Below, one piece after another: positions 14,149 to 62,376 of a DNA stretch of 64,000 bases. Both the position numbers and the translations under genes were made by a program. The notes beneath the pieces were generated by a model. The model did no database searches. It was given only the letters and a program-made list of their open reading frames with translations, and was not told where the DNA came from. The DNA is from a virus, in the IMG/VR virus record IMGVR_UViG_3300042876_000418, positions 1 to 64,000 of that record, one strand, 5' to 3'. Numbering within the stretch: position 1 is the first letter of the stretch; each line of letters opens with the position of its first letter.

Positions 14149-14649
14149 CTACTCCACAGCTTTCAATGTGTGACTATCATTCGGATTGTGCCACAGTCCG
14201 TTTTCGTCTTTGTGCGGTAATTGAATCCCGCAAAACCGGCAAAACAAGACGGTCGAATCGCACCAGCGGCAGTTGTCGCAAGAGACAACTTTTTCGGAAA
14301 CGGGGTGCACTGGGATAGAAATGTTACTGGCATTCAGATGACCGCCGCAATTCGGGCAAGCATGTCCGACTCCGTGCTCTTTGATGTTCAATTCTTGCCG
14401 AACAAACGTATAAGTGTAATCCCCGGCGTTTTTTAGTGATTCGTCTTTCCAAAAGAACATAATCAGGCATTGCACCGCATACCCCGCCAGATCGCGCCAT
14501 GTGTCCGCCTGCGTTTCGTCCTTCACTTCGGCGTCCCGCTTCAGTAGGTTTTCGATCCGGGCCAGCTTATCCGAGCAGCGTACCAGGATACCGAGCACCC
14601 CAAACCGGGCCAGGTTGTTTTCGCCGTGAGCTACGAACCCGTTCATAGG
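14149..14649 (-). pseudogene. 3' fragment of a gene split by the TnpB element (DUF1599/Nmad1-like plus zinc ribbon)
   Basis: The frame from the element boundary reads NGFVAHGENNLARFG, ILVRCSDKLARIENLL, DETQADTWRDLAGYAV, matching the C-terminal part of nucleotide-modification-associated (DUF1599-like) proteins. It then has CPNCGG, CDNC and CRFCG zinc-ribbon cysteines. The missing N-terminal part is at 16030-16137 on the far side of the element. Whether this part is still translated, for instance from ATG 14646, is unknown. Confidence 0.7.
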
Positions 14650-15821
14650 GTAACGCTTCCGGCTTCCACGAGTACCGCCTGACAAGCAGGTCTTACACAC
14701 TCTCCACCGGCGTTGATTCTTTTGGCCGCTCCGGCCATAGAAAATTCACGAATATTTATTGCTGCATTTCCGTCCCGGTTATGGTGGGTGTTGCATTGGG
14801 GGCAATCCCATTCCCGAACGGATAAGTCTAACTTTTCGAGCACGTACCCACAGGTTGAGCAGGTCTTGGATGACGCCTCAAACCGCCCAATCCTTACAAT
14901 TTCAGATCCATGCCAGAGACCCTTATAGTCCAGTTGTCGCCCAAACGTGCTCCATCCTACATCCGAGATGTGTTTGGCAAGACTGTGGTTTTTGATCATG
15001 CCAGACACATTCAAGTTTTCAATAGCGATGTAACCGTATTGGTTGACAAACATTCGACTAGTCTTGTGTAGAAAATCGGCCCGTTGGTTCGCTACCTTCT
15101 CATGGGCTAAGGCTAACTTATGTTTCGCCTTATACCACCCGGATGAACCTTTCACTCTACGGGACAAGACTCGACTAGCCCGCTTGATTTTCTTTTCAGA
15201 CTTGAGTAAGAATCGTGGGTTAGGAATTACCTCACCATCTGAAGTTACGGCAAAGTCTTTGATACCCAAGTCGATTCCGACCTTGCCTGGTCTGTTTTGG
15301 GGAGGGTCAATCTCAATCTCGCATTGAAAAGATGCGAAATATTTACCCGTTGAGGTCTTGCTGATTGACAAATTATTTATCTTGCCATCTATAGGTCGGT
15401 GGAGCTTGATTTTTACCCAACCGACTTTCGGGGCATAGATTTTATTCTCAACCAGCTTGAAACGCTGAGGGTATCTAATGGACTGCTTTGCGGTTTTCTT
15501 TTTGAATTTTGGGAAACCGCGCCCATTGAAGAAATTCTTGTATGCCTTATCCAGATTTTTTAGGCTTTGTTGTAAAACCTGAGCATCTGCATCTTTCAAC
15601 CAGATATGTTCCGAATTTTTCTTCAATTCAGTCAGCATACTGCATGTATCGTACAGAGTTAGACCTTTTTTCTCTTCGGTCTTGTGCTCTTGGTAGAACT
15701 CAATCCGCTTGCCTAAGAAAAAGTTATAGACAAACCGGGCGTGCCCAAACTGAATTGCAAGAGCTTTCTTTTGCGATTCGTTTGGGTAAATCCGGTAGCG
15801 GAATGATTTATGGATTAGCAC
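14643..15821 (-). CDS. tnpB: RNA-guided nuclease TnpB
   Basis: 392 residues. RuvC-I Asp in GIDLG (184), RuvC-II Glu in IAIENL (268), zinc ribbon C321, C324, C340, C343 and RuvC-III Asp in NRDGNAA (350); all catalytic residues are present. TnpB proteins cut DNA next to a short motif using an RNA made from the element's right end. GTG start overlaps the TAG of the small gene upstream (TAGTG), so the two are translated together. The C-terminus ends EAGSVTL, running into the element's right end as is usual. Confidence 0.93.
   Translation of the reverse strand: MLIHKSFRYRIYPNESQKKALAIQFGHARFVYNFFLGKRIEFYQEHKTEEKKGLTLYDTCSMLTELKKNSEHIWLKDADAQVLQQSLKNLDKAYKNFFNGRGFPKFKKKTAKQSIRYPQRFKLVENKIYAPKVGWVKIKLHRPIDGKINNLSISKTSTGKYFASFQCEIEIDPPQNRPGKVGIDLGIKDFAVTSDGEVIPNPRFLLKSEKKIKRASRVLSRRVKGSSGWYKAKHKLALAHEKVANQRADFLHKTSRMFVNQYGYIAIENLNVSGMIKNHSLAKHISDVGWSTFGRQLDYKGLWHGSEIVRIGRFEASSKTCSTCGYVLEKLDLSVREWDCPQCNTHHNRDGNAAINIREFSMAGAAKRINAGGECVRPACQAVLVEAGSVTL
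14650..14740 (-). ncRNA. putative omega-RNA scaffold of TnpB (right end)
   Basis: The last part of tnpB holds a CCTG-loop-CAGG hairpin (around 14680) followed by GTGGAAGCC, a pattern typical of right ends that specify the guide RNA scaffold. The guide would be the flank read on the minus strand from 14649, CCTATGAACGGGTTCG. Inferred from family behaviour. Confidence 0.35.
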
Positions 15822-15955
15822 TAGACCTTCTTTACGTCAGACTCAATCAGATGAATGAGATATTGAACGAAGTTCATCTCAAGCTGGTGGGCACGCTTCC
15901 GGGCCAGGATATACAAATCCATTGACATTCTGAGAAGGTATGTTTTGATTTCCAT
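15821..15955 (-). CDS. small ribbon-helix-helix protein coupled to tnpB
   Basis: 44 residues. MEIKTYLLRMSMDL (strand), YILARKRAHQLEMNF (helix) and VQYLIHLIESDVKK (helix) fit an Arc/CopG-type ribbon-helix-helix DNA-binding fold. TAG overlaps the GTG of tnpB by one base. A perfect promoter places the transcription start at the ATG itself, so the mRNA should be leaderless. Likely an autorepressor of the tnpB unit; inferred from fold and position. Confidence 0.7.
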   Translation of the reverse strand: MEIKTYLLRMSMDLYILARKRAHQLEMNFVQYLIHLIESDVKKV

Positions 15956-15961
15956 AGATTT

Positions 15962-15990
15962 ATTATATATCATTTATAACATAGTGTCAA
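15962..15990 (-). promoter_or_regulatory. promoter TTGACA-17-TATAAT, leaderless
   Basis: TTGACA (15985-15990), 17-base spacer, TATAAT (15962-15967), then 6 bases to the ATG at 15955. Transcription should begin at or next to the start codon. No ribosome binding site is present. Confidence 0.8.
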
Positions 15991-16913: not shown

Positions 16914-17987
16914 CTACTCATTTATGTGATTCCAGACGTTGCCCGACTTCTTAGCCGTGATACTCGGATCGGTTGCGATGGTACCGGCGTTGTAGTTGAT
17001 CCGGCATGGGAAAGTACGCCCGGCAGGCAGGCCCCCACGCTGTTTGGCGGCTTTAAAAAAGATCATATCCTCTTCAACCGTAAACGAGATATCGCCGTGG
17101 GTGATACGAGCGCCCACCGGTGAGGTTTGCTTGACAAGCCATTGGGTGATAATACGATCTACCCGCTGAGGAATCGCGTTAGTCTCTTCGCCGTCCTTCC
17201 ATCCGGGTAACTGCCATTCGCCCGTACCACATTCCATATTCTGTTTCGCCTGAGCAGCGTACACCACCGGGCAGTTGAAAATCTTGGGCCAATCCTGGAG
17301 ACGATATACATCGTCTCTCACCTGCAAGCGGCGCTGTACTTCGATGTTCGCCTTACGCATTTCAGGATCAAGGGGCAGCGCCTGGAGGTAATCCACGAAG
17401 ATCCCGGCAGGCTTCACTACATCCCCGGTAATGTCACCCCCAACCAGTTTCTTGATTCCCCGTTCGATGTTGGACAGGGTGAGCGGGCCTTTGAACGAGT
17501 CTTCCCTCATACTCGATTCCCCAATCCGAAAGATGGGGATGGACGCCAGCTTGGTTGAGGACATCAGGATATTGTCAAAGTTCTTGACCGTCCCCCGCGC
17601 CATGTTTCCGGTATTCTCCCCTCCAATCTTCGAGAATCCACGAAAGGCCATCGCCTCGATTGTCTCTTCCACGCTAACGTGAATGATACATTCGTCAAAG
17701 CGCTCCTGGGCGATAAGCTGCTGTGCTGCTACCATCTCGAAAAAATCCAACATGGTGCTTTTCGCCTGGGACGGCTGTGCTATGAACACCATCGTTTCAA
17801 ACGGCATGAGGGGAGCCACGTAATCGCGCATACCCTCAATCGGGAAAATGAGGCTGCGGTACTTACCGGCCTGTACAGCGCGAATCATCTCCGTACCGTA
17901 GAACGCGGTTTGCTGGGGAGTGTAAACCATGCGCCCGGCGTCAAACATATTTTTTAGCTCAGGGACCGTGGGTTGGGAGTTAGGCAT
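16914..17987 (-). CDS. dnaB: replicative DNA helicase, DnaB C-terminal type
   Basis: 357 residues. RecA-like ATPase: Walker A AQPSQAKST (residues 70-78), Walker B IFVDYLQ (196-202) and the late KQRGG (315-319) that corresponds to the DnaB/KaiC arginine-finger region. It lacks a full DnaB N-terminal domain. Should unwind the fork 5' to 3' as a hexamer, working with the primase at 24925-26007. ATG 17987 chosen: GGAGGA is 4 bases upstream, and it overlaps the end of the initiator-like gene. Confidence 0.85.
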   Translation of the reverse strand: MPNSQPTVPELKNMFDAGRMVYTPQQTAFYGTEMIRAVQAGKYRSLIFPIEGMRDYVAPLMPFETMVFIAQPSQAKSTMLDFFEMVAAQQLIAQERFDECIIHVSVEETIEAMAFRGFSKIGGENTGNMARGTVKNFDNILMSSTKLASIPIFRIGESSMREDSFKGPLTLSNIERGIKKLVGGDITGDVVKPAGIFVDYLQALPLDPEMRKANIEVQRRLQVRDDVYRLQDWPKIFNCPVVYAAQAKQNMECGTGEWQLPGWKDGEETNAIPQRVDRIITQWLVKQTSPVGARITHGDISFTVEEDMIFFKAAKQRGGLPAGRTFPCRINYNAGTIATDPSITAKKSGNVWNHINE

Positions 17988-18942
17988 AAAATCCTCCATC
18001 AGATTCGCGCTTAATTTCTTTCTGAGGAGTGACACGCATTAGTCCAACCGTTCCTCTTGCAGTTTTTATTAAGGACTGAGGACTTGTCGGAACCCACCGT
18101 GGGATTCCGCCATTTTCCACCATTTGTCTATCCCAATCGGCATGAATCTTATCAATTACAGGTAATCCAATTTCAGCGCAAATTTGACGCAATTCTTCCG
18201 CGCTTTGTTCCCAAAGTATAAAATCTCCGCCTTTCTTTCCTTTCCGGCGCGGCGGGGTAATCTTCCACAATTGACAGAATTTCGCCACGACTGGCCGAAC
18301 CGATTCGGAATAGTCCTCAACGTGCAAAATATTCATACCTGTATAATCCCAATATGGTTGACTGGCAGCCATGGCGGCTAAAATATCCCGTTTCTTTCCA
18401 TCGGACTGAGTGGAAGAAGGCTTTCCAGTGTTCATTTGGCTGGATTCGTCTTGCATGGGTTGTTCCTCCTGGATTGTCTCAACTGGACTGGACAGTGATT
18501 TTTCATCGCACGCGGGATCCGATTTTTTCGCGCCCAAACTTATGTTTAGATTATCGGATCTATTATGATTAGGGGGTGCTACAGGGGAGGGGTGAGGGGT
18601 GCTGTAGAGGGGGGGTGAGGGGTGCTGTAGAGGGGGGGTGCTACAGGGGAGGGGTGAAACTTTGCCTAAATTTTTTGAAACTACGCGATACACATTCGCG
18701 GATCGTCCCCCTCCAACTTTGACAATCTCAAGCTCAGGGTCAGACTCTTTGCATAACTCATGAATCAAATCCTGGGTATGCTTTGGGCTTGCCCTGATTT
18801 TCTTTGCCAAAGTTGCTACGCTCGGCCATGCCGTACACCCATTGGCTTCGTTGGCAGAATCGGCAATAGCCAGCAAGAGAAGCAATTTGGCCCCGCTCTG
18901 GCGCGATTTCTTCCAAACGTCTGTCATGATTTCAATGCTCAT
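17980..18942 (-). CDS. replication initiator or helicase-loader-like protein with winged helix
   Basis: 320 residues. The N-terminal 85 residues (GAKLLLLLAIADSANEANG, AWPSVATLAKKIRAS, QDLIHELCKE) form a winged helix like those of phage replisome-organiser proteins. A low-complexity Pro/Ser/His linker (about 100-130) is encoded by G-rich iterons. The C-terminal domain (about 210-320) is not recognised. Placed directly before the helicase gene, as lambda O-type and DnaD-type proteins are. It probably binds the iterons inside its own gene and recruits the helicase. ATG 18942 overlaps the preceding gene. Confidence 0.65.
   Translation of the reverse strand: MSIEIMTDVWKKSRQSGAKLLLLLAIADSANEANGCTAWPSVATLAKKIRASPKHTQDLIHELCKESDPELEIVKVGGGRSANVYRVVSKNLGKVSPLPCSTPPLQHPSPPLYSTPHPSPVAPPNHNRSDNLNISLGAKKSDPACDEKSLSSPVETIQEEQPMQDESSQMNTGKPSSTQSDGKKRDILAAMAASQPYWDYTGMNILHVEDYSESVRPVVAKFCQLWKITPPRRKGKKGGDFILWEQSAEELRQICAEIGLPVIDKIHADWDRQMVENGGIPRWVPTSPQSLIKTARGTVGLMRVTPQKEIKRESDGGFYA
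18572..18657. other. putative replication origin: four G-rich iterons plus AT-rich flank
   Basis: Plus strand carries four copies of GGGGTGCT: two continue ACAGGGGAGGGGTGA and two continue GTAGAGGGGGGGTG, in the order A, B, B, A. An AT-rich stretch (about 18528-18571) adjoins. Located inside the initiator-like gene, as in lambda. The G-tracts could also form quadruplexes. Confidence 0.55.
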
Positions 18943-19297
18943 TGCCGTATTCCTCTTCAGTCTGAAGGAACACCCGCCCGAATCGGTACGATCCAATCTT
19001 GACGCGCGGTTTCCAGAATGGGCACTTGGTTTGCATCTGGCTTGCAGTATCCCCGGCCCCCATATCAGTCTGGTCATGGCGTTCAGCGCAAACCGGAATC
19101 CATGAGTTATCGCAGACATCTTCACCAAAAATAAGTTTATGGTGATCTTGATCCTGAGCGATAAGGTCGCCACACGTTACGCACGATTGAGTCGCTGGAT
19201 TGTGGTAGCACTGCGATTCGTGCTTTTGCGCATTCTTGTTTACCTTGTACTCCTTAGCGCAATGGACACAGGCGTATTTCGTGATTATGATTGGCAT
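18932..19297 (-). CDS. zinc-binding protein
   Basis: 121 residues. CVHC (10-13) with His25 and Cys30, then CVTCG (39-43), His52/His53 and later Cys residues suggest two zinc sites, possibly HNH-like (DQDHHKLIFGEDVC), but no full HNH signature is visible. Overlaps the initiator-like gene by 11 bases. Confidence 0.65.
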   Translation of the reverse strand: MPIIITKYACVHCAKEYKVNKNAQKHESQCYHNPATQSCVTCGDLIAQDQDHHKLIFGEDVCDNSWIPVCAERHDQTDMGAGDTASQMQTKCPFWKPRVKIGSYRFGRVFLQTEEEYGNEH

Positions 19298-19301
19298 TGG
19301 G

Positions 19302-19520
19302 CTATTCCTTCATCGTTCCTGGGAAAACGGCATTCACGACTTCGGTCATTTGTTCGATAAACTCCTTGAACTCTTCCGGCGTGAATGTGATTTTCTCCCC
19401 TGCATTCCATTGAAACGGTCTCCCATTCATCCACAGCTTGATCTCGTTCGATTCCGACTCGCAAATCACCCGGACATTCCCGCCCGGCTTTGAATATCGC
19501 AAACTATCACACTTCAGCAT
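19302..19520 (-). CDS. hypothetical protein downstream of structured RNA
   Basis: 72 residues, beta-rich then helical (TPEEFKEFIEQMTEVVNA). GAAAGGATAGGTT precedes ATG at 19520, right after the terminator of the structured leader RNA (19536-19699). First gene of the initiator/helicase unit. Function unknown. Confidence 0.65.
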   Translation of the reverse strand: MLKCDSLRYSKPGGNVRVICESESNEIKLWMNGRPFQWNAGEKITFTPEEFKEFIEQMTEVVNAVFPGTMKE

Positions 19521-19535
19521 AACCTATCCTTTCAA

Positions 19536-19699
19536 ATAAAAAACCGCTTTGCTCGCTTATCTCAGACTTCGGCAAAAGGATTAACTCTGGTTGGCTGACC
19601 AGGAAAACCCGAAGCCTGAGGTAAACAAACAAAGCGGCGAATACACCACTCTCGTTAATCCTTTTCTAAACTGTACTGCTGCTGGGTAGCCATCCCAAC
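19536..19699 (-). ncRNA. structured leader/small RNA with long pseudoknot and terminator
   Basis: Read on the minus strand from the promoter at 19706-19734. Perfect 12-bp pairing AAAAGGATTAAC (19654-19665) with GTTAATCCTTTT (19574-19585). Terminator stems CCGCTTTG (19630-19637)/CAAAGCGG (19544-19551) and a 12-bp stem 19609-19620/19561-19572 with one G-U, then TTTTTT. Hairpin CTGGT/ACCAG (19587-19602) inside. The first pairing crosses the terminator stems, giving a pseudoknot. No coding frame. Confidence 0.7.
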
Positions 19700-19705
19700 A
19701 CAATC

Positions 19706-19734
19706 ATTTTACCCCATTCCGCCCCGGATTGCAA
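19706..19734 (-). promoter_or_regulatory. promoter TTGCAA-17-TAAAAT
   Basis: Minus strand: TTGCAA (19729-19734), 17-base spacer, TAAAAT (19706-19711). Directly upstream of the structured RNA. Confidence 0.6.
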
Positions 19735-24924: not shown

Positions 24925-26007
24925 TTAGAAATAGCTGGGCGTCACAGCCCCGCGCATCATGGCGTGTAAATCTGATTTGTCCATCCACCCGTTGTTGATC
25001 ATGTCGTCTGGCTTCCCTGTGAATCGCATCAGCCGCGCCCGATTAGGATGAATCGCGTCCACTCGTTTCGCCAGTTCAAACGCACGCTTAGACGCCTCTA
25101 CGCCCGGATCAAAGCCGATGAACACCCGCCCGGCGTGCTGCAATAGTGGCATTGCGCATTCAAGGCTCTTGATACCAGGGACGCCGATCACCTGGTACTC
25201 CATGCTGTCCAGCGTCTTGAATCCTACCGCGGCTTTGATCTCCCCTTCAAACACCACGAATTCCCCGTCCCATTCCGGATTCCTGTCCGGATCCGCAATG
25301 AACGAATGCGATTCCAGGGAGGCTTTGTCTGGGCGGTATTTGTCGTTCTCTTCAAACGGTTGGAGTAGGCGGTGACGAATGGTGACGGGCTTCCAGCCCG
25401 GCGCGAAAATTGGGATTGATAATGTGGGCGTCTTCCAGAACGATTCGTACCCATCCCCGTCTGTCTTTTTGCGCCATAAGTGAAACTCAGGATTGTACCC
25501 GAGTTGCCAGTATTCCTGCCATTCCTGCGGTATCCCCCGCGCCGCCCACAATCCCCGCGTATTGTAGCGATCCAAGTTGTCGTGATATTCCTCCCATCTT
25601 CTTGCCGACTGGAGATCCAATTTCGCCTTCTCCATCCTGGCCCGCGCAAATTCAAGTTCTTTCGCTGCCACCGCTGCCCGCTGCTCTGCCAACATCCGAA
25701 TTTGAACCGGGTCGGCATCCTCTCCACCCAAAATCCGGCAGGCTTCCGGGAAATCACAGTTGGGGGTTACTTTCATCACAAAATCAATTGCATCACCACC
25801 CCCGCAATGAGTGAAGCACGTCCACTGCATGATCCCGGTTTTCTTTGAGCGGTACACACAAAACCCGGTAGGATTGTCGCCCCCATGAATCGGACACGGT
25901 CCCCGGAATTCGTGCCCCATCTGGCGTAATCTCACGTTCATCATGGTTTGAACGAGATTCACTAAATCAGTTGAATTTATCAGCGTCTTTACGTCGATAT
26001 TAGGCAT
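24925..26007 (-). CDS. dnaG: DNA primase, CHC2 zinc-finger type
   Basis: 360 residues. CHC2-like zinc finger C38, H41, C64, C68 within GPCPIHGGDN and WTCFTHCGGGDAIDFV; Toprim-like VVFEGEIKA (about 250) and VFIGFDPG (about 293). Shorter than cellular DnaG (about 600) and without a helicase-binding C-terminus. Makes RNA primers with the helicase at 16914-17987. Overlaps the upstream gene by 8 bases. Confidence 0.88.
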   Translation of the reverse strand: MPNIDVKTLINSTDLVNLVQTMMNVRLRQMGHEFRGPCPIHGGDNPTGFCVYRSKKTGIMQWTCFTHCGGGDAIDFVMKVTPNCDFPEACRILGGEDADPVQIRMLAEQRAAVAAKELEFARARMEKAKLDLQSARRWEEYHDNLDRYNTRGLWAARGIPQEWQEYWQLGYNPEFHLWRKKTDGDGYESFWKTPTLSIPIFAPGWKPVTIRHRLLQPFEENDKYRPDKASLESHSFIADPDRNPEWDGEFVVFEGEIKAAVGFKTLDSMEYQVIGVPGIKSLECAMPLLQHAGRVFIGFDPGVEASKRAFELAKRVDAIHPNRARLMRFTGKPDDMINNGWMDKSDLHAMMRGAVTPSYF

Positions 26008-26725
26008 TGGTACCCTCTCTGTTTATGTACTCAACCACGTCGAAAGCCGTGATTCCGTGAGAGAAGAAAAATTCATTCCAGTTATCCGGCTTGATCTCTA
26101 ACCCCCGCTCTTTCCTGATTCCTGCCATACCCATCTCCCACCGTTGCGAATCGGGCAGATCGTACCAATCATCATTATGGTAATCGGCTGATGACTGGTC
26201 GGGGAACGAGTCGCCCCCGCTGAAACTCAGTACCACGGGAGAATCGCCGGTCATCTCCAGGAGAGAGATTACCTCTTCCCAGCCCTGATTCGCGCGGTAA
26301 ATTTTCGATTTCAGTCCAACTTTGATAATCTCAGCCATCCACGCCCGGTTAGGACCCTCCATAAAACAGTGAAGTTCACATTGACCGTGGATCCGCGTGG
26401 CAAGTTTGATAGGATCGCTACCGACTACATAAGCCGTATTGAGCGCGACTTCAAACGTGTCGATATTCTTACCGTTCATAGAGAACCCTTCACGATCAGA
26501 ACCAACCCTAAGCCACAGTCTGAAATTGCGCTCAAATTCGCGTTCATCGCTCAGCGCTACATAACTATTTGCCGGGAAAACCTTCTTGTACCGTTCCATA
26601 TTATGCGAAGAGGGTTGCAATACAGCTAAAGCAATCTCGCTAATCAGGCCCCCAAAATACGCCCGCTCCGATCCTCTTACCCCTATTTCGTCACCTTCGA
26701 TTGAGTGAAAATAAATTCTGCTCAC
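26000..26725 (-). CDS. hypothetical protein leading the primase operon
   Basis: 241 residues, GTG start with AGGAGG 4 bases upstream. No domain recognised; residues 1-60 and the C-terminal 30 (HGITAFDVVEYINREG) look most ordered. It follows the structured leader RNA at 26745-26885 and precedes primase, so its expression is probably controlled by that leader. Confidence 0.7.
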   Translation of the reverse strand: MSRIYFHSIEGDEIGVRGSERAYFGGLISEIALAVLQPSSHNMERYKKVFPANSYVALSDEREFERNFRLWLRVGSDREGFSMNGKNIDTFEVALNTAYVVGSDPIKLATRIHGQCELHCFMEGPNRAWMAEIIKVGLKSKIYRANQGWEEVISLLEMTGDSPVVLSFSGGDSFPDQSSADYHNDDWYDLPDSQRWEMGMAGIRKERGLEIKPDNWNEFFFSHGITAFDVVEYINREGTNA

Positions 26726-26744
26726 TGATCCTCCTGGTAAATAA

Positions 26745-26885
26745 AAATTCCCAAACTCTTAGCTGGGGACGACCGAGGGACAACGCCTGGCGGGCTAACA
26801 CGTCATCCACAGCTAACAGTTTGGGAACTGTTCTGTCATCCCTTGGCACCGGCTCCGCCAGAAGCCTCGTATGTTGGTGCGCTTT
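26745..26885 (-). ncRNA. structured leader/small RNA with kissing loop and terminator
   Basis: Read leftward from the promoter at 26887-26915. A 5' hairpin GGCT/AGCC presents loop TCTGGCGG; CTGGCGG (26855-26861) is complementary to CCGCCAG (26787-26793) in the loop of a long terminator stem (26810-26825 with 26750-26765, 15 of 16 pairs), then AATTTTTATTT. Layout hairpin loop, terminator arm, complement, terminator arm is the same as at 62007-62096. The gene at 26725 follows at once. Confidence 0.7.
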
Positions 26886-26886
26886 C

Positions 26887-26915
26887 AGTTTACGGCATTT
26901 CGGGATCAAAGTCAA
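26887..26915 (-). promoter_or_regulatory. promoter TTGACT-17-TAAACT (leftward)
   Basis: TTGACT (26910-26915), 17 bases, TAAACT (26887-26892). Lies back to back with the rightward promoter, with only 3 bp between the two -35 boxes, so the divergent units probably share regulation. Confidence 0.7.
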
Positions 26916-48440: not shown

Positions 48441-48761
48441 ATGAAAACACTGCAAGAATGTATTCGTGAGGACCAAGAAAGCCCCGCGTCCCAATTGATT
48501 AGCCGGATGGAACGCGAAACAGGCCAGCGGGTTGACGATCCTGGAAGTAACGCACTCGCCGGCCTGTTCGGTGCAATGGCGCGAATGATGGGTAAAACGA
48601 ATTACCCCCCCCAGGATGATGTGGTGGCGGGCCTGTTGATCCTGCATCAGATGACACCGGAATACCAGAACGATCAACGCAGTAAAGAAATGATCACAGG
48701 TATGCTTACCGCTGGAATGTCGCCCGATGATATCCGTGCCATGTTTGGGAAAGGTAGTTGA
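48441..48761 (+). CDS. hypothetical protein
   Basis: 106 residues, helical (ALAGLFGAMARMMGK, MLTAGMSPDDIRAMFG). AAGGGAGTAACG before ATG. The stop lies within the -35 of the next promoter. Unknown. Confidence 0.65.
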   Translation: MKTLQECIREDQESPASQLISRMERETGQRVDDPGSNALAGLFGAMARMMGKTNYPPQDDVVAGLLILHQMTPEYQNDQRSKEMITGMLTAGMSPDDIRAMFGKGS

Positions 48762-48786
48762 CATCCTGCCCGCGTGGTGCTAATAT
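48758..48786 (+). promoter_or_regulatory. promoter TTGACA-17-TAATAT
   Basis: TTGACA (48758-48763), 17 bases ending GTGGTGC, TAATAT (48781-48786). Extended -10 TGC. No gene follows before the terminator at 48834. Confidence 0.7.
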
Positions 48787-48792
48787 AAAAAC

Positions 48793-48864
48793 ACCTCCTA
48801 ACGGTTTTTGAGCCTGAGTTCCATTCTCCACGGAAAGACCCCGACACGACGCGGGGTCTTTCTC
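48793..48864 (+). ncRNA. candidate small RNA 1
   Basis: About 70 nt with its own promoter and a strong terminator (AAAGACCCCG/CGGGGTCTTT, 48834-48861). The 5' end can form AAAAAC/GTTTTT around a loop with CACCTCCT, which matches the anti-Shine-Dalgarno end of 16S rRNA and could pair with GGAGG ribosome binding sites. No coding frame. Confidence 0.6.
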
Positions 48865-48868
48865 GTTA

Positions 48869-48897
48869 TTGACAATCTGATTGTGTCGTGCTAAACT
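48869..48897 (+). promoter_or_regulatory. promoter TTGACA-17-TAAACT
   Basis: TTGACA (48869-48874), spacer ending GTGTCGTGC, TAAACT (48892-48897). Directly after terminator 1, making a tandem arrangement. Confidence 0.7.
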
Positions 48898-48903
48898 GAA
48901 TGC

Positions 48904-48971
48904 ACTCCCTTAGTGCTGCTCCACCCCATTCTTGCCCCACGAAAGAGCGCCGCCCACCCCGGCGCTCTTTC
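48904..48971 (+). ncRNA. candidate small RNA 2
   Basis: About 68 nt: GCACT/AGTGC hairpin with loop CCCTT, a pyrimidine-rich middle, and terminator arms GAAAGAGCGCCG (48941-48952)/CGGCGCTCTTTC (48960-48971). The hairpin also ends the convergent 48976-49293 gene. Confidence 0.55.
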
Positions 48972-48975
48972 AATT

Positions 48976-53506: not shown

Positions 53507-53535
53507 TTGACTTTTAGTGTATTACGATGTAGAAT
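53507..53535 (+). promoter_or_regulatory. promoter TTGACT-17-TAGAAT
   Basis: TTGACT (53507-53512), spacer TTTAGTGTATTACGATG, TAGAAT (53530-53535). Contains the clearest copy of the core AGTGTATTAC. Confidence 0.85.
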
Positions 53536-53541
53536 AAGTGT

Positions 53542-53650
53542 CATACAGATTGAGCGCGGCAGAAACGCAATGTTGAAACCTGCGTTTTACAACCATAGCG
53601 GACAACCGCTGTGATAGCGATCCCTGGTTAAAGCATGGCGCTCAATCTGT
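53542..53650 (+). ncRNA. structured leader RNA closed by a 12-bp stem
   Basis: CAGATTGAGCGC (53546-53557) pairs perfectly with GCGCTCAATCTG (53638-53649). Inside: AAACGCA (53563-53569) with TGCGTTT (53581-53587), crossed by GTTG/CAAC (53572-53575/53590-53593), and an AGCGG/CCGCT hairpin with ACAA loop. No terminator; the GGAGGGAACAATG of the 53678 gene follows 17 bases later. Riboswitch-like, no known class recognised. Confidence 0.65.
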
Positions 53651-53677
53651 AACTTTCTGAATGTTCTGGAGGGAACA

Positions 53678-53947
53678 ATGACGCGATTAGAGGCTTTACG
53701 AGCAGCAAAAGACGCCGGATTTACCCATGCGGTTTTGCACCCATACACGTATCACGCCCGGACGATTGAATCGCATATCCAGGAGGCGCAAACCGGGCAG
53801 AATGATATCTCTTATCCAGGATCAAGCGCCGCGTCCGAAGTGTGGACTTTCGACGTAAACGAAAATGCAGTTAACGGAGACAGCGCGTGGTACTCTCTTT
53901 CTATCAAAGATGCCGCCGTGTTTGATAATTCTGGAGGGAACGAATGA
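53678..53947 (+). CDS. hypothetical protein
   Basis: 89 residues. LRAAKDAGFTHAVLHPYTYHARTIESHIQEA. GGAGGGAACA before ATG. Follows the structured leader; ATGA overlap with the next gene. Unknown. Confidence 0.7.
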   Translation: MTRLEALRAAKDAGFTHAVLHPYTYHARTIESHIQEAQTGQNDISYPGSSAASEVWTFDVNENAVNGDSAWYSLSIKDAAVFDNSGGNE

Positions 53948-61768: not shown

Positions 61769-61975
61769 ATGAATAACACCGAAGAAATTATCCAGACGGT
61801 AAAGAAAACAATTCCCGCCGAATCTTGCCCGACCGTATTTTATGGGTACGATCCAAAATCGAATAAATATGGTTGGCACGTTCGGCTTTCACGCTGGCCT
61901 GACGCCCGCTTCATGGGAAACGGCATTGACAAGGCCCTTGAATTCGCCGCCAATCCGGCTAACTTTGCTACTTGA
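61769..61975 (+). CDS. hypothetical protein
   Basis: 68 residues. YGYDPKSNKYGWHVRLSRWPDARFMGNGIDKAL. Five bases after the methyltransferase stop. Unknown. Confidence 0.65.
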   Translation: MNNTEEIIQTVKKTIPAESCPTVFYGYDPKSNKYGWHVRLSRWPDARFMGNGIDKALEFAANPANFAT

Positions 61976-62000
61976 TCTATAGTGTAATACGTGCTATACT
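61972..62000 (+). promoter_or_regulatory. promoter TTGATC-17-TATACT
   Basis: TTGATC (61972-61977), spacer TATAGTGTAATACGTGC, TATACT (61995-62000), extended -10 TGC. Complete family consensus. Confidence 0.8.
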
Positions 62001-62006
62001 GTATGA

Positions 62007-62096
62007 CAGATTAGTAAATCGGCACCGGATTGCGCCCGGTAAATACCCCGCCCGAAATTGATGTGAGATTGCGCAATAGGGCGGGGTGTTTTTTTT
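62007..62096 (+). ncRNA. kissing-loop leader RNA with terminator at the ribosome binding site
   Basis: Hairpin GATT/AATC (62009-62020). Hairpin ACCGG/CCGGT (62024-62040) with loop ATTGCGC, which is exactly complementary to GCGCAAT (62071-62077) in the loop of the terminator ACCCCGCCC/GGGCGGGGT (62045-62053/62079-62087), followed by eight Ts. The T-run abuts GGAGGG of the 62107 gene, so termination or antitermination decides its expression. Confidence 0.75.
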
Positions 62097-62106
62097 GGAG
62101 GGAAGT

Positions 62107-62376
62107 ATGAACCGAAAACAAGCCTTTGATTTTCTGGCCGATATCGCCACGGTTTGCGGGTGCGAGATCGAGAATCGCATTCGGACCAACGGGGATTGGT
62201 TTGTTACCTCGCTATCCTGTTTCCGGGCTGTACACGGTGACGCCGGCGAAACGTTGATCTTCCTGGGACCCCACCGGGTAGCCGCCGTAATTTCACAAGA
62301 ACGGGATCACGTCAAATTAGCCGAGATGATTGTATCCAAAGCCAACCAGCACAAAATGCAGGCCGACCATGTCTGA
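62107..62376 (+). CDS. hypothetical protein
   Basis: 89 residues from ATG 62107. FDFLADIATVCGCEIENRIRTNGDWFV. Directly controlled by the terminator leader. Unknown. Confidence 0.7.
   Translation: MNRKQAFDFLADIATVCGCEIENRIRTNGDWFVTSLSCFRAVHGDAGETLIFLGPHRVAAVISQERDHVKLAEMIVSKANQHKMQADHV

Follow-up and report, generated by a model that had tools for sequence, protein, structure and literature searches.

In plasmids of the pIP501/pT181 type, the synthesis of the replication initiator is limited by premature termination at attenuators that are under antisense control (PMC4981023). The ~70-nt putRNA of phage HK022 has two stem-loops; it binds to RNA polymerase, and the terminators on which it acts are distant (PMC9378689). 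The crcB and pfl motifs are riboswitch or protein-binding attenuators with pseudoknots that overlap the terminator (PMC2864571). Here, we describe a leader element, E1, from an uncultivated phage; RNAs of its type appear to form a family of RNA switches, so far undescribed, that act on phage replication genes, and no description of such an element was found in the open-access literature. Intrinsic terminators are usually pictured as short hairpins with small loops; members of the E1 family have stems of 24–33 bp, loops of 20–52 nt and two pseudoknots to upstream RNA, and stand directly before replication initiators.

The window, i.e. the whole 64,000-nt stretch analysed, belongs to an uncultivated phage record of 89,961 bases. 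On its minus strand, E1 consists of a promoter-like site, a folded RNA, a U-run and an RBS, in that order, followed by a replication operon (Table 1), and its predicted RNA measures ~160 nt up to the U-run. The first-pass annotation of this DNA had reported a 12-bp pairing, an 8-bp terminator stem and a second 12-bp stem, the first crossing the other two. All three were recovered on the minus strand at their reported positions: AAAAGGATTAAC (19665–19654) is a perfect 12-bp complement of GTTAATCCTTTT (19585–19574), CCGCTTTG (19637–19630) pairs with CAAAGCGG (19551–19544), and CTCAGGCTTCGG (19620–19609) pairs with CCGAAGTCTGAG (19572–19561), one G–U pair being among them. The perfect helix, here termed PK2, does cross both other pairings and joins RNA upstream of the terminator hairpin to the hairpin loop. 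However, the 8-bp stem and the second 12-bp stem, which had been taken as separate, are the base and the top of a single 29-pair hairpin (19638–19609/19572–19544). The view that so long a perfect pairing exceeds chance was borne out, in that the window contains six perfect inverted repeats of at least 12 bp within 170 nt where 0.4 were expected (simulated sequence of the same dinucleotide composition), and the E1 region folds with z = −6.1, none of 200 shuffles being equally stable. The strongest argument against chance is that the same topology recurs, with different sequences and at the same position, in other phages.

Table 1. Positions in the window of the E1 element, its operon, the second family member and a possible reduced relative
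Feature	Position	Strand	Remarks
Sigma70-type promoter-like site, E1	19706..19734	-	TTGCAA-17-TAAAAT; inferred transcription start near 19700
P1 hairpin, E1	19680..19700	-	UGUUGGG-AUGGCUA-CCCAGCA; loop has UGGC, one half of contact PK1
Segment A, E1	19654..19665	-	AAAAGGAUUAAC; 5' half of the 12-bp pseudoknot helix PK2
5' arm of 29-pair terminator hairpin, E1	19609..19638	-	
Hairpin D inside terminator loop, E1	19587..19602	-	Loop AGCCA (19596-19592) complements P1 loop UGGCU (PK1)
Segment A', E1	19574..19585	-	GUUAAUCCUUUU; 3' half of PK2; ends 1 nt before 3' arm
3' arm of terminator hairpin, E1	19544..19572	-	
Terminator U-run, E1	19538..19543	-	TTTTTT
72-aa gene, first after E1 terminator	19302..19520	-	No family match; RBS GAAAGGAUAGG at 19533-19523
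121-aa Cys/His-rich protein	18932..19297	-	No family match; in relatives, HNH or zinc proteins occupy this operon position
O-like replication initiation protein (HTH_36)	17980..18942	-	E1 operon
DnaB-like replicative helicase	16914..17987	-	E 3e-7; Pfam DnaB_C just under cut-off
Second family member, same phage	26743..26915	-	Precedes primase operon
Promoter, second member	26915-26887	-	TTGACT-17-TAAACT
P1, second member	26866-26851	-	P1 partner 26793-26787
Segment A, second member	26843-26835	-	A' 26784-26776
Stem, second member	26828-26802/26773-26748	-	U-run 26747-26743
Operon behind second member	24925..26725	-	241-aa protein, then primase-like CHC2 zinc-finger protein
Possible reduced relative	61972..62109	+	Promoter, hairpin, terminator, U-run, RBS, ATG

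A search of IMG/VR with the window helicase and the 72-aa protein gave no relatives. A capsid relative of the window phage is located in a Chloroflexi MAG, and in a set of 400 Chloroflexota genomes one was found to contain a strong homologue of the relatives' initiator, the ORF behind which resembles the window helicase by eye; judged from these sequence relationships, a Chloroflexota host is likely. The replication region of the window also contains a TnpB-like transposon protein (14643–15990, minus strand) with a perfect-consensus promoter, TTGACA-17-TATAAT, upstream at 15990.

Neither blastn of the E1 element against phages and plasmids, nor an exact search of IMG/VR for the A/A' pattern, nor a search for E1 sequence homologues in capsid relatives gave anything convincing. 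Relatives were gathered by their major capsid protein, and a topology scan with inspection was then applied. The E1 layout was first seen before the initiator operons of G008 and G006, both related to the window phage through the major capsid protein; their pairing sequences (CGACACGAAG/CUUCGUGUCG and CCGGAAAUGGUC/GACCAUUCCGG, respectively) are unrelated. The initiators of these two phages served as queries for further IMG/VR contigs, and the analysis covered 23 loci at which the upstream sequence was long enough; the loci were chosen by initiator homology and all relatives are uncultivated contigs. Early RNAfold topology scans missed members with a bulge in PK2, and a bulge-tolerant duplex search was used instead. 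By this search the element is present at 14 of the 23 loci (L081, from G008, L082, from G006, L083, L084, L086, L087, L089, L090, L091, L092, L094, L096, L108 and L114), with the initiator as the first to third gene behind it, so that at least 14 other IMG/VR phages have the same layout before an initiator operon. The homologue search proposed in the first-pass annotation thus found no sequence homologues of E1 but, when made structure-aware, did find its layout. In L101 the stem and PK1 are retained but the U-run is missing, L092 is without PK2, and the element is absent at eight of the 23 loci, as it is before the initiator of G011, whose replication genes are the most similar among the capsid relatives. 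A strict scan of 2.1 Mb (both strands counted) returned 21 matches, mostly leaders of the family, the remainder having weak stem scores (45–50) or, for L114, being its own opposite strand; the same scan of 0.8 Mb of simulated sequence returned none. Rfam 15 gave no match above the gathering threshold, the sub-threshold matches being microRNA-like, for L091 and L114. Since E1 is without sequence homologues and homology between its initiator and those of the other members is not detectable, its membership rests on architecture and position.

The common order is promoter-like site, P1 hairpin, segment A, stem, U-run and start codon. The promoter-like site is found in 15 of 16 members, the sixteenth being cut by the contig end, and in the 15 with sequence there the inferred start lies 40–69 nt before the stem. 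The P1 loop often carries UGGN, and the start codon follows the U-run within about 30 nt. Two upstream segments contact the terminator loop, A pairing with A' (PK2) and the P1 loop with a partner (PK1) that is usually flush with the 3' arm and in E1 sits in hairpin D. In some phages the initiator is preceded by an HNH-like, Cys-rich or DNA methyltransferase-like protein (names by sequence inspection). The only RBS-like sequence of six members lies in the terminator 3' arm, and translation may therefore also be controlled. The hairpin region of L114 (749–855) also reads as stem, U-run and ATG on the opposite strand, so that this element may be bidirectional. In another relative, G005, a leader terminator before a different gene (L026, near 14398, minus strand) has a 9-bp loop-to-upstream pairing, UGCUGAGGG/CCCUCAGCA, with its segment A at the extreme 5' end of the transcript. 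Apparent intein-like insertions, ending ...VVHNC, were seen in a portal-like ORF and another late ORF (L003, 1662–4349, and L002, 16756–18966, both minus strand).

Conservation of pairing was assessed by scoring the A region of each of 16 members against its own loop and 15 foreign loops. The pairing sequences differ throughout the members, yet complementarity is kept: for PK2 the mean fit to the own loop was 18.5 versus 11.7 for foreign loops (p=7e-9), and the own loop was the best in 12 of 16 members. The corresponding value for PK1 (p=2e-4) is weaker because a UGGC/GCCA motif is shared among members. Covariation in homologues, which the first-pass annotation had made a touchstone of its proposal, is therefore present at both contacts. 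The stems contain 57 G–U pairs versus 10 A–C pairs, and 47 versus 14 when detected in a strand-neutral manner (p=1e-5), an excess which indicates that selection acts on the RNA of this strand and not on DNA. In a stem search for which a U-run was not a condition, strong stems (score of at least 50) nevertheless ended in or at one at 14 of 15 loci, whereas weaker stems (45 or less) did not. It is well supported, then, that E1 is a conserved RNA, and the large pseudoknotted RNA that had been proposed upstream of the initiator/helicase operon stands, with layout and complementarity conserved and G–U in excess of A–C.

In the pIP501/pT181 attenuators, as in the E1 family, a replication initiator gene has a terminator in its leader, and to this extent the plasmid analogy drawn in the first-pass annotation holds. 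However, the upstream RNA of the E1 family pairs with the terminator loop and not with the arms (own versus foreign, p=0.36 for the 5' arm and 0.79 for the other), nor has it specific complementarity to the sequence after the U-run (p=0.37), and no antisense sigma70-like site scoring at least 9/12 (the only promoter type sought) was found in the leader region of any of the 16 members. As there is neither an antisense promoter of this kind nor upstream pairing with the 5' arm, the known antisense mechanism does not fit, and control of the pIP501 kind is not supported. Placement before initiator genes, kept in 14 other phages, does support a role in replication-gene expression, and hence that part of the earlier suggestion by which the RNA could set replication or copy number. 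The put element of HK022, which binds the beta' zinc-binding domain of RNA polymerase, resembles the E1 family as a structured phage leader RNA near a promoter that acts on termination by RNA alone, but its two stem-loops are distinct from the terminator, whereas E1-family RNA includes and clamps its own terminator through a single long hairpin with P1 and loop pseudoknots. With crcB and pfl the family has in common a 5' leader RNA of conserved structure with a terminator before the start codon (PMC2864571); it differs in that hardly any sequence apart from the UGGN loop is conserved, complementarity being kept instead, and in having no visible ligand site and no Rfam match. No Rfam match to the T-box leader (specifier stem I, antiterminator with a UGGN bulge) was found either; UGGN lies in the antiterminator bulge of the T-box but in the P1 loop of the E1 family, where it pairs within the same RNA.

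Our current working hypothesis, to which we assign a probability of about 0.55, is that E1 belongs to an undescribed family of cis-acting leader RNAs and controls the amount of initiator and helicase by transcription attenuation, with the clamp favouring termination. Transcription from a strong promoter would yield a nascent RNA with the P1 hairpin and a free segment A, after which the polymerase would make the 5' arm of the terminator (24–33 bp) and then a loop of unusual size. Two sites in this loop would be captured, by the P1 loop (PK1) and by segment A (PK2), and the loop would so be organized before the 3' arm emerges; the 3' arm would then close the hairpin at the U-run, and most transcripts would stop at ~160 nt, a few bases before the RBS or start codon. 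Read-through, and hence expression of the replication genes, would occur when the clamp or the hairpin is kept from forming, be it by a trans-acting factor or by a change in folding or transcription speed. A terminator with a strong promoter on one side and the start codon on the other suggests attenuation. Hairpins with large loops form more slowly, and both contacts could form before the 3' arm is made, which favours a clamp that helps termination over one that hinders it. We infer that termination takes place, that the clamp helps it and that a factor may regulate it. Several observations count against attenuation: no mutually exclusive antiterminator pairing of the classical type was found for the upstream RNA; read-through alone might not give translation in the six members whose only RBS-like sequence is in the 3' arm; and L092 is without PK2, L101 without a U-run and eight loci without the element. 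Rather more tentatively, the family could represent a new class of attenuator with a tertiary clamp as the switch, in which two promoter-proximal segments recognize the loop of a very long terminator and conserved complementarity gives each phage a private code that would prevent cross-regulation of replication genes between related phages sharing a cell. If attenuation works as proposed, phage replication genes would be gated by RNA only. Each member uses a different pairing code, which would then make the family a possible source of orthogonal RNA regulators. The architecture also gives the annotation of uncultivated phages, perhaps of Chloroflexota, a structural feature to work from.

The pseudoknot might instead be an antiterminator, in which tying the loop to the hairpin foot strains or delays basal closure so that the clamped RNA reads through and the unclamped RNA terminates. 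In several members, whose A' is in the loop, no more than 1–7 nt separate A from the foot of a ~27-bp stem, and we estimate from helix and linker lengths (about 2.8 Å per bp and 6 Å per nt) that the clamp and a fully closed stem are near the limit of coexistence; an RBS hidden in the 3' arm, as in six members, would likewise mean that the ON state needs an open stem. However, clamp and stem share no base, and E1 and L090 have linkers (15 and about 20 nt) of sufficient length for both to form together; we regard this arrangement as unlikely. It is slightly less likely that the element serves to make the ~160-nt terminated RNA, which as a stable small RNA would act in trans, its targets being mRNAs of phage or host, or replication; the downstream genes would then be fed by incidental read-through. 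Nearly all members do have their own promoter and terminator, the fold is compact with two long-range contacts, and other short promoter–terminator units occur in the same phage near 48781–48975. Yet the position is tied to one operon type, with the terminator a few bases from the start codon, and freely varying pairing sequences would be odd for an RNA with a conserved target. Long stems at the 5' end of operons are known from the lambda N or T7 leaders as RNase III processing sites or mRNA stabilizers, and stems of 24–33 bp are longer than a terminator needs and suited to RNase III; a clamp that merely shapes such a substrate is nevertheless very improbable, given complementarity specific to the loop and a U-run at 14 of 15 strong stems although the search did not require one. 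A DNA element active in replication, such as a single-strand initiation site or an origin hairpin, would suit the adjoining replication genes but is the least credible of these readings in view of the strand-specific G–U excess over A–C and the fixed order of promoter, U-run and start codon.

A leader peptide was also considered and rejected. In the window a short frame from the P1 loop (19693–19653, minus strand) encodes MATQQQYSLEKD with its stop inside segment A, and in G006 a short frame, MATRQQ..., starts in the P1 loop (L021, 5610, minus strand), a start like that of E1 and one not shared by other members. No leader frame in a consistent register, as expected of a translated attenuator of the trp type, was found across members, and L092 and L114 have no open register through the hairpin.

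The window phage carries a second family member, before its primase operon, and a possible reduced relative (Table 1). The 7-nt hairpin loop of the latter, AUUGCGC, complements GCGCAAU in the terminator loop, although at p of about 0.01–0.03 this is weak alone. Other operons of the window (47073–46987 and 45615–45512, both minus strand) open with a promoter, a short leader, a simple terminator, a U-run and an RBS, as do those of G001 (L013, near 4352, and L014, near 457, both minus strand). The loops of these simple leader terminators are 3–4 nt, in contrast to the large loops of the E1 family. One, before a 515-aa gene, has an apparently orthologous place in G001, and leader terminators thus seem to be a general feature in this group of phages. 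A conserved GGAATTGAC box before the simple leader terminators was discarded as a candidate, with two matches in the window against 0.8 expected, which is not significant. Two tandem promoter–terminator units of ~80 nt each (48760–48975, plus strand) contain CACCUCCU and CACUCCCUU, which complement the GGAGG(GA) ribosome-binding sites common in the window phage; they are possible anti-SD small RNAs. Finally, a structured leader without a U-run (53507–53682, plus strand; promoter TTGACT-17-TAGAAT) lies just before an RBS and ATG, and within it a perfect 14-bp stem closes a multi-hairpin RNA (53544–53651, z = −5.45).
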